From a virus: DNA of 42,572 nucleotides. The DNA is taken from positions 1-42,572 of IMG/VR virus record IMGVR_UViG_3300030098_006042. One strand, 5' to 3'. Both the position numbers and the translations under genes were made by a program. Within the stretch, counting starts at the first letter, position 1, and each line of letters begins with the position of its first letter. Of this stretch, positions 25,602-30,151 are shown in pieces. The notes below the pieces were generated by a model. The model made no database searches. It saw only the letters and a list, made by a program, of their open reading frames with translations, and was not told where the DNA came from.

Positions 25602-26339
25602 TTATGTTCCTAACTGAATAACTTCTACGACGGATACGCCGGAAGAACCATTCGAGTAACCGTAAACTACACCAGCATCGTCAACATTACTGCTGGCTGC
25701 TCGGGGCAGAGCATCGGCGAGAACAAAGAAGCCACCCGCTGGGATGGTATGGACCCACTGTCGCAGGACCTGAACCTCAAGGCTCTGACTCGAACCGGCA
25801 GACCATGCGCTGCTGCTGTTGATATGAATGACGGCTGTGCTGTCACGAGCCACCAGGCCATATCGGGCGCCCGACCTAGCCGTGTTGGCAGCTCCCGCGT
25901 CGACAACAAAGAGGTGCTGGTTGCTTCCAAACCCCGCAGCGTCCGACCATGGTGTGCCTGAGCCTGCTGTAAGGGTTACCATGTTGGTGCTTCCGAGGGC
26001 AGTGTTTGCCACAGTCACAACACCACCGGTAGAGACCTTGTCTCCCATTCTTGTGTATCCGACAACAGTCACACTGTTTGTGGTGTCTGTGTTACGAATG
26101 GCCAGACACTGCTCTGTCTGAATCCCCTCATCAGTCGTGTCGTTTTGGGCAGCGTGATGAACAATTGCAGAGTAGAGAGGGTTCGCTCCGTCCGAAAGTG
26201 ACGGCAACTCGATCCGCTTAATAATAGCTTCATCTGGCGTCAGCTCATAGGCAGCCGACTTCGTTTTAAAATAAGGGTTCGAGTAATCCGCGTTCTCACT
26301 TAGAATCGTCTCTAGAGTCATCTTTGAGTAGGTTGTCAT
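25602..26339 (-). CDS. Beta-rich virion-like protein on the early strand
   Basis: This is a 245-residue protein. After a helical first 45 residues it is Gly/Ser/Thr-rich and alternating hydrophobic (SVTVVGYTRMGDKVSTGGVV, AVIHINSSSAWSAGSSQSLE), ending GVVYGYSNGSSGVSVVEVIQL. This composition is that of head-decoration or fibre-type virion proteins, yet it is encoded opposite to the late operon, in the same unit as the VRR-NUC nuclease. The ribosome site GGAGACCCCA supports the start, which overlaps the nuclease 3' end by 44 bases. A virion role is inferred; it might instead be host-surface directed. Confidence 0.55.
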   Translation of the reverse strand: MTTYSKMTLETILSENADYSNPYFKTKSAAYELTPDEAIIKRIELPSLSDGANPLYSAIVHHAAQNDTTDEGIQTEQCLAIRNTDTTNSVTVVGYTRMGDKVSTGGVVTVANTALGSTNMVTLTAGSGTPWSDAAGFGSNQHLFVVDAGAANTARSGARYGLVARDSTAVIHINSSSAWSAGSSQSLEVQVLRQWVHTIPAGGFFVLADALPRAASSNVDDAGVVYGYSNGSSGVSVVEVIQLGT

Positions 26340-26811
26340 TGGGGTCTCCTATCTTGTAACCACATTGATTTCGTAAAAATTCCAGCGCATCTCGATATCC
26401 AAAACAGACCTTGCACACCCACCCTAGCTCAGTGAGCTGACGCATCCATTCCTTTTGTTCGGCGGACACACGACTGGGCGCTGGCTTTGCTCGCTTTAGC
26501 TCGATAACAACACCTGGAGCATGGGGAAACTTCGGCGCTCGAGTAAATACGGCCAAGTCAGGAAACCCCTTATGTGCCCCCATCCTTTTCATCCGCGCAC
26601 CTGCCACTGGTGAGCGTGCCGCGATCCCCATCGGGCAATGTTGGAACAAGAGGTCTGCTTTTCGGAGGTCGGCGACCAACCACAATTGTTCTTGTTCTTC
26701 GCTTGGATACTTTGATTTCGCGCGTTTCCGCTTCGTAGGCGAGTCGACCCTTTGGGCTTTCTGAAAAAACCTTTGCGTCGCGTTCAAGACTCTCTGTGAG
26801 TGATCTGCCAT
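26296..26811 (-). CDS. VRR-NUC domain nuclease
   Basis: This 171-residue protein has the core of the VRR-NUC (virus-type replication-repair nuclease) domain, a PD-(D/E)XK fold. SEEQEQLWLVADLRK, then a Pro-Met-Gly-Ile-Ala motif, RMKRMGAHKGFPDLAV (catalytic Asp in GFPDL) and GVVIELKRAK (E-x-K), then SAEQKEWMRQLTELGW (Q-motif helix) appear in the family order. Such enzymes cut branched DNA, as resolvases or in repair, and are frequent in phage replication clusters. A strongly basic N-terminus (SPTKRKRAKSKYP) may contact DNA. A 129-base spacer precedes it and holds a structured element. Confidence 0.82.
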   Translation of the reverse strand: MADHSQRVLNATQRFFQKAQRVDSPTKRKRAKSKYPSEEQEQLWLVADLRKADLLFQHCPMGIAARSPVAGARMKRMGAHKGFPDLAVFTRAPKFPHAPGVVIELKRAKPAPSRVSAEQKEWMRQLTELGWVCKVCFGYRDALEFLRNQCGYKIGDPNDNLLKDDSRDDSK

Positions 26812-26956: not shown

Positions 26957-27714
26957 TTTTCGTTGCCTGCAAAATTACAGGCCGCGACTTGTAACAGTCG
27001 TTTTGCTGTCAGGTATGCTAACCCCGGCACGACCGCATTGCCTATGCTGCGGTGTCGGTCCACCCAATTGGGAACCCCATAAGCGCTTCCGTAAACTCGC
27101 ACGATAGTTTTCCAGGCTTCCCCCACACCCCACTGGTTGCCCTCGTAAAGAGACTTGCGGTACCTGCACTCGGGCGGCTCTTGTTCACACCGTTCTGCGA
27201 GCTTCCGTAAATCGAAGCTGTTGGTGTAGGCAAGGATGTAGATGCGCTCGCGAAGGTGCGGGAGACCGAGCGAACTCGCGCATAGAGTGTCCCATTCGAC
27301 TTCACACAACCCGCCATCGTAAAGGGCAGCGAGCACTTCATCGAGTCCCCGAACAGTGAGGCCTGGGGAGTTCTCCAGCAGCACTGCTGTGGGTCGAAGC
27401 GCCCCGATAAGGCGATGCATCTCCCACCAAAGGGAGGACTCTCGCCCCTCCAGACCTGCTCGTTTTCCGCAGACTGCGATGTCGACGCATGGCCATCCTC
27501 CGATGATGATGTCGCATCGTTCGAGGTCAGCAGGGTCAATTGATTCGATAGCTCCATAACGCCTCGCGTTGGGAAAATTCTTAGCCAGGACTGCTTGGCA
27601 GAACTCGTCCTTCTCTATCTGCCAGGCGATCTGTGAATTGGGGATGGCAGCTAGGACCCCAAGATCATAACCACCGATCCCCGAAAAGCAGCTACCGATT
27701 TTAATCGGCGTCAT
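26941..27714 (-). CDS. DNA cytosine-5 methyltransferase
   Basis: This 257-residue protein methylates cytosine at C5. Motifs in order: GSCFSGIGGYDLG (motif I, SAM binding, about 7-19), GGWPCVDIAVCGKRAGL (motif IV, catalytic Cys76), LLENSPGL (motif VI, Glu114), LPHLRERIYILAY (motif VIII, Arg155/157) and VPNWVDRHRSIGNAVVP (motifs IX-X, about 214-230). The target-recognition region is short, typical of small phage enzymes, so the DNA target cannot be read. The stretch 27042-27557 is also open in another frame with its own conserved-looking signatures. The start overlaps the acidic gene at 27701 by 14 bases. Confidence 0.9.
   Translation of the reverse strand: MTPIKIGSCFSGIGGYDLGVLAAIPNSQIAWQIEKDEFCQAVLAKNFPNARRYGAIESIDPADLERCDIIIGGWPCVDIAVCGKRAGLEGRESSLWWEMHRLIGALRPTAVLLENSPGLTVRGLDEVLAALYDGGLCEVEWDTLCASSLGLPHLRERIYILAYTNSFDLRKLAERCEQEPPECRYRKSLYEGNQWGVGEAWKTIVRVYGSAYGVPNWVDRHRSIGNAVVPGLAYLTAKRLLQVAACNFAGNENPRQG
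27042..27557 (-). CDS. Out-of-frame gene nested in the C5 methyltransferase (phage methylase-associated family)
   Basis: This is a 171-residue frame lying wholly inside the methyltransferase gene but shifted. Its sequence is not random. WRTPQASLFGDSMKCSLPF, AGCVKSNGTLYARV, SLPTPTASIYGSSQNG and GKLSCEFTEALMGFPIGWTD follow, in order, a pattern I recall from phage proteins usually annotated as methyltransferase C-terminal pieces ('W-P-x-S-G-x-x-R-N-G', 'L-P-T-P-T-A-S', 'N-P-x-F-V-E-W-L-M-G-F-P-I-G-W-T-D'). The same bases give VPNWVDRHRS in the main frame. GAGG lies 4 bases before the ATG. Alternatively it is a relic used only through frameshifting. Recalled from memory, not searched. Confidence 0.5.
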   Translation of the reverse strand: MELSNQLTLLTSNDATSSSEDGHASTSQSAENEQVWRGESPPFGGRCIALSGRFDPQQCCWRTPQASLFGDSMKCSLPFTMAGCVKSNGTLYARVRSVSRTFASASTSLPTPTASIYGSSQNGVNKSRPSAGTASLFTRATSGVWGKPGKLSCEFTEALMGFPIGWTDTAA

Positions 27715-27877
27715 CCTCTTCCTCTCCCTCGTCCTCTTCTTCTACCTCTTGCTCCTCATCCTGGTCTGCCTCCCTTCGGGCGTCCCAAAACTCCTCGGGC
27801 AGCTCTGCGAATTGAGCTTCGTGATAGGCGGCTCCTTCAAGGTCATTACTGTAAACGTCGTCACGCCGCTTTGGCAT
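27701..27877 (-). CDS. Small acidic-tail protein
   Basis: This is a 58-residue protein, MPKRRDDVYSNDLEGAAYHE onward, with a basic N-terminus and a run of Glu/Asp (about 40-58, DEEQEVEEEDEGEEEDDAD). Its ATG overlaps the previous stop by one base (TAATG) and is preceded by GGAGATG. Its 3' end overlaps the cytosine methyltransferase by 14 bases. A hyper-acidic tail could mimic DNA and bind a DNA-binding protein, as phage anti-restriction or regulator proteins do; that is inference. It was too short for a standard ORF listing but fits the coupled operon. Confidence 0.6.
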   Translation of the reverse strand: MPKRRDDVYSNDLEGAAYHEAQFAELPEEFWDARREADQDEEQEVEEEDEGEEEDDAD

Positions 27878-28935: not shown

Positions 28936-29862
28936 CTATCGCTTGAAATGAATCTCGCGGTCAGCGTTACCGGCGTGCTGAATCACACACCCGATCTTTG
29001 AGAACACCTCGGCAAAGCGCTCTGGATACGCTCCGAAGTAAACGAAGACTGTGCCGTGGGCTGGCGAGTCAGTTTTGTTGTGAGGTCCGTAGAATTTGAT
29101 GCGACCCTGAACAAAGCACAGGCTGCCATCCCACAACTCAGCGAACCACCTGGTATCGGTTGCATTGTTGATGCAGATAATCATCTGCTCTGTGGTGCCA
29201 CGGTTAAGTTCGGCCAAAGCCTTGTCGATCCAGTCGTGAATGACTTTGCGACCATAGGGAGGGTTTAAAAACACACGACCGGGCCAGGGCTGATGGAGAC
29301 CATTGCGGCCTTCGGCTGCTGAGTAGTAGACGTGAGCGTTAACAGTCGTGTTTGCTTCACTGCAAGACGCTGGATCCAAGTCGATGTCACCAAGCACCTC
29401 TTTCACAAGTTCGATGTACTTTGCAGGCGTGTACCAATCGGGCGGGCCGTCAAGACCGACTGTTGGGAGCTTTCGAGCAACGACCTCGGCCACCACATCC
29501 TGAGTGACTTTGCCACCGGATTCCTCAACAGCCTCCTGCCACGCTTCAGCTCTGTCGTCTGGGTGGAGCTTCTTAAGCGGGCGAACCTGTCGCTCGTTGG
29601 TGGGCAGCTCAGATGTGCCGGGGTTAGCTTCAATCTGGGCCACAGTCTCTGCCGCATTGATGAGCCGGTAGACATGCTGCCGTGTGTAATTCCAACGACT
29701 GCGACAGTAGTCATCGAAAGTGGCGTGCTGCTCTCGATACAGCTTCTCGTCTCTGATGGTGGCGAGGGCTTGGCCAACGTCAACGAAGGTGTCAAAACCT
29801 CGCTGAATGGTTTCCTCGAGTGCGGCGAAGGTGCTGCGCTGCGGCACAGTCAGGCTATTCAT
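28936..29862 (-). CDS. DNA N6-adenine methyltransferase (phage Dam type)
   Basis: This 308-residue protein has a helical N-terminus (ALEETIQRGFDTFVDVGQALATIRDEKLY, then FDDYCRSRWNYTRQHVYRLINA) like the helix-turn-helix modules of phage Dam proteins. Its C-terminal part fits the Dam (PF05869) family: PDWYTPAKYIELVKEVLGDIDLDPASC, VNAHVYYSAAEG, and VFLNPPYGRKVI with the NPPY catalytic motif at about 200-203. It methylates adenine, probably to resist host restriction. The start at 29862 is chosen for GGAG seven bases before; the longer open frame upstream is only the shadow of the HNH gene. Confidence 0.88.
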   Translation of the reverse strand: MNSLTVPQRSTFAALEETIQRGFDTFVDVGQALATIRDEKLYREQHATFDDYCRSRWNYTRQHVYRLINAAETVAQIEANPGTSELPTNERQVRPLKKLHPDDRAEAWQEAVEESGGKVTQDVVAEVVARKLPTVGLDGPPDWYTPAKYIELVKEVLGDIDLDPASCSEANTTVNAHVYYSAAEGRNGLHQPWPGRVFLNPPYGRKVIHDWIDKALAELNRGTTEQMIICINNATDTRWFAELWDGSLCFVQGRIKFYGPHNKTDSPAHGTVFVYFGAYPERFAEVFSKIGCVIQHAGNADREIHFKR

Positions 29863-30151
29863 ATTGATACTCCAAGTTGTACAATTTGCAGTTTGTAGGA
29901 TCACCGTCTCGGTGAACGATGCGCGAGTGCTTGGGTCGTGGACCCATGAAGGTTCGGAGAACGAGCGCTCTGACTTGCTGGGTCTTTTTTCCATCTGCGT
30001 TGCAGAGGGAGACAATGAGGACATCGGAAGGGGCGTAACCCACTTTGAGAACTTTCGGCTCGCTGCGTTTACGCCACGACCTAACGCGGCCATGAGTCGA
30101 GACTTCGTAGTCATTGAATCCCTCAATGCGCTTCCATCGCTCCAGGGTCAT
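29855..30151 (-). CDS. HNH endonuclease with NUMOD4 motif
   Basis: This 98-residue protein begins TLERWKRIEGFNDYEVSTHG with RVRSWRK, the NUMOD4 DNA-binding motif. It then has VRALVLRTFMGPRPKHSRIVHRDGDPTNCKLYNLEYQ, an HNH nuclease core with H-R-D-G-D and N-C-x-x-x-N-L. Such stand-alone enzymes are typically homing endonucleases. The start is chosen at 30151 because it forms an ATGA overlap with the preceding nuclease; upstream frame is shadow. The stop overlaps the methyltransferase start. Missing Zn cysteines suggest the compact one-domain type. Confidence 0.82.
   Translation of the reverse strand: MTLERWKRIEGFNDYEVSTHGRVRSWRKRSEPKVLKVGYAPSDVLIVSLCNADGKKTQQVRALVLRTFMGPRPKHSRIVHRDGDPTNCKLYNLEYQYE

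Follow-up and report, generated by a model that had tools for sequence, protein, structure and literature searches.

Does a frame of 171 codons lying out of register inside a phage DNA methyltransferase gene encode a protein of its own and, if so, what would that protein do? The question was raised by a preliminary description of a stretch of 42,572 nt (referred to here as the window), an IMG/VR virus record that carries portal, major head and integrase genes. The cytosine-C5 methyltransferase gene, here called alpha, occupies positions 27714-26941 of the minus strand and has 257 codons. The nested ORF, beta, begins with an ATG and runs from 27557 to 27042 on the same strand, in the +1 frame and entirely within alpha. 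Both ORFs were found as described, the three peptides quoted for the shifted frame occurring there in order, and the bases that encode (Y)GVPNWVDR in the main frame do encode MGFPIGWTD one frame over.

Each beta codon consists of positions 2 and 3 of one alpha codon and position 1 of the next, so that the middle base of a beta codon is the free third base of an alpha codon; conservation of beta therefore provides a clean test.

Selection on the shifted frame

A set of 87 loci, comprising 80 viral loci, six more and the window, was chosen by the main frame alone and compared with synonymous shuffles, which leave the alpha protein unchanged. The loci are diverse: the 81 that were aligned form 72 clusters at 70% identity, with a median identity of 40%. 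The motif [L/M]MG(F/Y/W)P..W was present in the +1 frame of 70 of the 87 loci, against 0.4 expected from the shuffles, and PTP in 79 (18.5 expected). The median open length of the +1 frame was 229 codons, compared with 104 in the shuffles, and the +2 frame, used as control, behaved as expected by chance (median 55 versus 61). Taken alone, the open +1 frame of the window was less extreme, its 190 codons being matched by 1% of the shuffles.

The similarity of the window beta to the same frame of 80 relatives exceeded the shuffle null in the core (z=10.7) and in the motif region (z=17.2); no such excess was found in the single-coded flanks of the window (z=-2.3 and -1.1). Over 600 pairs of loci the similarity above the null reached z=46 and z=83. 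At fourfold degenerate sites of alpha, third-base identity was 0.295 before beta, rose through 0.353, 0.469 and 0.636 to 0.723 along beta, and was 0.311 after its stop codon (random, 0.256). For alpha residues 111-165 the value was 0.47, against 0.26 at random.

Divergence at alpha codon positions 1, 2 and 3, of which position 1 is the wobble position of beta codons, was measured for 99 pairs of closer relatives. Upstream of beta it was 0.135/0.084/0.401, as in ordinary alpha coding. In the conserved beta core (DPQQCCWRTPQASLFGDSM..., 27264..27395, minus strand), which lies over alpha motifs VI-VIII, it was 0.208/0.090/0.223, both frames being constrained. The pattern was that of beta coding in the PTPTA region (0.416/0.261/0.298) and at motif IX (0.290/0.126/0.121), and past the end of beta it was that of alpha coding again (0.236/0.184/0.486). 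Along the gene, constraint falls first on alpha, then on both frames, then on beta and finally on alpha once more, with the changes at the limits of the nested ORF.

These results show that each of the two frames genuinely codes and is under selection, purifying selection on the shifted one being strong. True overprinting, which the preliminary description had suspected, is borne out by the shuffle nulls, by third-base conservation and by codon-position divergence; constraint in aligned homologues, a check that it had put forward, passes to the beta frame and back.

A nested frame could also stay open and look conserved merely through conservation of the main frame in a register poor in stop codons. 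Such shadow ORFs exist, an example being Streptococcus phage P0091 gp40, called inside an ordinary methyltransferase that has motif IX in its own frame (RECWRLQGFPDWAF), and the +1 register is indeed stop-poor, since shuffles still leave about 100 codons open. However, shuffles that preserve the main protein abolish the signal seen over the 600 pairs, third positions are frozen within the nested ORF only, and the constraint shifts to the beta frame. For the family this explanation was ruled out by the synonymous shuffles, third-base conservation and codon-position divergence, and we regard it as having next to no likelihood.

Distribution of motifs between the two proteins

Searched separately, as the description had advised, the two frames matched different families. 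Alpha matched PF00145 within residues 5-170 only (E=3e-34) and phrog_363 (E=1e-48); its score with TIGR00675, 97.5 bits, was slightly below the cut-off of 100.65. The Pfam and TIGR models cover only about the first 170 residues of alpha, and phrog_363 was matched by all 41 alpha sequences. Alpha contains the C5 cytosine methyltransferase core, motifs I-VIII with Pro-Cys, GGWPC being conserved: in catalytic motif IV (GGWPCV, 27484..27501, minus strand) residues G72, G73, P75 and C76 are invariant in alignment A4. Motif X (RSIGNAVVP, 27025..27051, minus strand), with G225 and P230 invariant in the same alignment, is also in alpha, and only its first residues overlap the last codons of beta.

The AlphaFold (AF2) model of alpha had a pLDDT of 83 and a pTM of 0.81, and its closest PDB fold was that of M.HhaI, over about 173 columns. 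The predicted fold is a confident M.HhaI-like large domain in which residues 182-220 (27055..27171, minus strand; pLDDT <50) form a disordered linker exactly at the site of the small domain. Over this linker the beta frame dominates, alpha codon position 1 being the most divergent.

The preliminary description had assigned all C5 methyltransferase motifs to the main frame. This did not hold: pattern searches revealed no recognisable motif IX in the window alpha and found one in the alpha of only a few relatives, the PF00145 match ends at residue 170, and a sequence resembling motif IX lies in the shifted frame. No small domain appeared in the AF2 model of the alpha chain. In the monomeric enzymes M.HhaI and M.HaeIII the small domain and motif IX are in the same chain; alpha is without both and so does not have the monomeric form. 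The lack of motif IX in the main frame was a clue to a heteromeric enzyme.

Beta matched phrog_1008 (E=1e-12), as did all 65 aligned beta sequences, while nothing meaningful was returned by Pfam, NCBIfam and PDB sequence searches. A search of viral contigs with the single window beta yielded no matches, and an alignment of 12 sequences was required as query. The families phrog_1008 and phrog_363 are both labelled DNA methyltransferase; they are kept as two separate families and the nesting is not indicated.

The conserved elements of beta follow one order: W(R/K)TSQ..., SGM.RNG..Y.L, PTPTA, a variable part in which the longer members have extra PTP units, and L-NP-(F/W)VEW(L/M)MGFP.GWTD. PTPTA (27216..27230, minus strand), with T111 invariant and P112 at 95% in the 65 sequences, marks the start of the variable part, which is probably target-recognising. 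The putative motif IX of beta, LSCEFTEALMGFPIGWTD (27054..27107, minus strand), shares its bases with alpha ...VRVYGSAYGVPNWVD; its assignment draws on the consensus L NP..VEW[LM]MGFP.GWTD, to which the window contributes CEFTEALMGFP where most relatives have NP.FVEWLMGFP, and on the fused relative L183. In L183, HMMER aligned LNPRFVEWMMGLPDGW of the alpha chain to M.HhaI motif IX, LHPRECARVMGYPDSY, in a second domain with the low score of 3.6 bits. Motif assignments throughout are by patterns and profile alignments. The AlphaFold model of beta alone was poor (pLDDT 61), the motif IX helix being its sole confident part; this fits an obligate partner and could also mean that the alignment was thin.

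Beta had been described as a methylase-like protein. Rather than a second methylase in its own right, it is more aptly viewed as the part that alpha lacks, a small-domain/motif IX subunit of one and the same enzyme. The locus very probably encodes a two-polypeptide cytosine-C5 DNA methyltransferase in overlapping frames, a catalytic alpha and a small-domain beta, the latter made from an internal start. Alpha would form the large domain, with AdoMet binding, the Pro-Cys catalytic loop and motifs I-VIII and X; beta would be translated from its ATG in the +1 frame and would contribute motif IX and most likely also the region that recognises the target, so setting the specificity. The two proteins would associate into one active enzyme, whose role is probably self-methylation of the phage against host restriction.

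Alternatively, alpha might be complete and active by itself, with beta a separate accessory protein such as a regulator or anti-restriction factor. HMMER laid the alpha linker, with a conserved V..GxPxRxDR ahead of motif X, on motif IX of M.HhaI, and a degenerate motif IX might have been kept in alpha. The absence of a small domain from the AF2 model speaks against a complete alpha, as do the fused relatives L080, L103 and L183, in which motif IX has shifted into alpha. Moreover, L168 has motif IX (LMGFPIGWTDL) followed by the RVATGIKERVNRLKCLGNAVVP stretch, which is therefore not a substitute for motif IX. We consider an independently active alpha very improbable, and favour the two-subunit enzyme.

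Production of beta and arrangement in relatives

The putative start of beta is preceded, at a distance of 4 nt, by the ribosome-binding-like sequence GAGG (27562..27565, minus strand). In 59 of the 81 loci, the window included, an ATG fell no more than five codons from a single site, a number only modestly above the synonymous null (45 +/- 4). A Shine-Dalgarno-like sequence preceded the beta start in 36 of the 81 loci (44%), against a background of 18%. Both features favour internal initiation of beta.

The preliminary description had left a choice between overprinting and regulated frameshifting. A programmed +1 ribosomal frameshift would join alpha and beta into one chain, and in split relatives (Hammer, phiBT1, L126, L168 and L173), in which the beta frame continues to motif X beyond the alpha stop codon, such a shift would yield a full enzyme. 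Against this, most loci have a separate ATG for beta within one short segment, with enrichment of the Shine-Dalgarno-like sequence, and the beta core overlaps alpha motifs VI-VIII, which would have to be given up in a single shift. Nested genes keep motif X in alpha, and a frameshifted chain would be without it. The start signals make frameshifting unneeded, although they are not proof; we judge it very improbable, and overprinting with an internal start is the part of that choice that is retained.

To see the arrangement from the other side, 80 viral loci were fetched by the nested frame alone. A methyltransferase in the overlapping frame was found in 74 of them, with beta fully nested in 67, partially in 4 and split in 3; the nested frame was likewise present in nearly all of the 80 loci fetched by the main frame alone. 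A scan of genomes with beta as query gave 72 loci, of which 44 were nested, 10 partial, 6 fused and 2 split, the remaining 10 being without a catalytic motif in range. These architectures were counted by regular expressions and the numbers are approximate. The scanned loci came from Pseudomonadota, Actinomycetota, Bacillota, Bacteroidota, Chloroflexota, Planctomycetota, Spirochaetota, Cyanobacteriota and one archaeal assembly. Under a stricter joint test, 202 viral, genome and phage loci, with some contigs counted twice, had alpha together with a nested motif IX frame.

In the split relatives, namely L126, L168, L173 and phages Hammer, Priya, Lunsford and phiBT1, alpha ends after motif VIII and motifs IX and X are in the beta frame. 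In the fused relatives, L080, L103 and L183, motif IX is within alpha itself. As read from these sequences, motifs IX and X have changed frame within the family. In L183 (1402-2343) and L103 the alpha frame holds both of these motifs, yet an extended +1 frame with the W(R/K)TS...PTPTA core is retained, and this core may serve a function separate from motif IX. With moderate confidence, we propose a large family of phage and bacterial C5 methyltransferases whose recognition (small) domain is encoded entirely in the +1 register of the catalytic gene, with selection passing from one frame to the other over its length, and in which motifs IX and X have moved several times to give nested, split and fused forms.

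Several loci are irregular. Annotation divides alpha into two neighbouring methylase genes (74/75) in phage Llama (L002 1302-2061) and its cluster F relatives, and there the match to beta is also in two pieces, as if one small indel had broken both frames simultaneously. Phage Jinglebell (L021 1525-2230) has two opposite-strand ORFs annotated over the methyltransferase, probably a misannotation. L096 shows an apparent internal deletion that puts the alpha N-terminus in frame with the beta core (IIGELKDLVSCSLRTSQLCLDGELSEFC) and is possibly a broken copy. A Roseovarius chromosome assembly contains five similar copies of the locus (L248, L249, L250, L253 and L254), either repeated prophages or an assembly artefact.

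Precedents, annotation and wider meaning

In M.EcoHK31I the ORF of the small polypeptide is also nested within that of the large one, in another frame. This enzyme (YGGCCR) has motifs I-VIII and X in the larger polypeptide and motif IX in the smaller only, and its predicted recognition domain has been placed in the large subunit (PMC3404938). Judged by that description, the window resembles it in having motifs I-VIII and X in alpha and motif IX only in beta. It is a phage gene, and it seems to differ also in that the place of the recognition domain in alpha is taken by a linker of 39 residues, predicted to be disordered, where beta is the constrained frame. The assignment for M.EcoHK31I is a prediction; in the window the predicted fold and the constraint point to beta. 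If M.EcoHK31I has the same division of domains, the window enzyme would be a further member of its kind.

M.AquI (CYCGRG) consists of two polypeptides that form one enzyme, split after motif VIII, the small subunit carrying motifs IX and X (PMC3404938). L126, L168, L173 and mycobacteriophage Hammer share this split, in overlapping frames, while the window, with motif X in alpha and beta fully nested, does not have the M.AquI arrangement. Alpha is also predicted to fold as the large domain of monomeric M.HhaI. In a search of openly available papers, M.EcoHK31I and M.AquI were the only precedents found for nested phage methyltransferase subunits. M.EcoHK31I is the known precedent and M.AquI a cousin; the breadth of the arrangement, across phages, many bacterial phyla and archaea, appears to be unreported.

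The genes around alpha were also inspected. A Dam-type N6-adenine methyltransferase (28936-30126, minus strand; PF05869, E=8e-12; phrog_111) is located just upstream of the C5 enzyme, and the phage therefore probably methylates two kinds of base. An ORF of 58 aa (27701-27877, minus strand) with a long acidic tail (EEEDEGEEEDDAD) overlaps the start of alpha by 14 bases, and its purine-rich end is also the ribosome-binding-like sequence of alpha. A VRR-NUC nuclease gene (26296-26811, minus strand) directly follows the methyltransferase and shares 44 bases with the gene that comes after it (25602-26339).

Phage annotation usually assumes that genes hardly overlap. Most GenBank phage records annotate just one gene under the match, alpha; Paenibacillus phage Jacopo is unlike them, the methyltransferase and its nested +1 ORF (JACOPO_56 and JACOPO_57) both being called DNA cytosine methyltransferase. 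With the nested frame in most loci and no Pfam or NCBIfam model covering beta, the description was right in supposing that the overlap is widespread and missed by annotation. In one published pipeline for phage genomes, overlap is penalised as such (PMC6070908).

Here a rule against overlap conceals one half, seemingly essential, of a common enzyme. If our reading is true, annotations of many orphan phage methyltransferases omit the specificity subunit, prediction of recognition sites from the annotated protein would read the wrong frame, and the enzyme would be destroyed if the annotated gene were recoded for cloning. The family offers a deep and testable case of two overlapping frames maintained across bacteria, archaea and their viruses.
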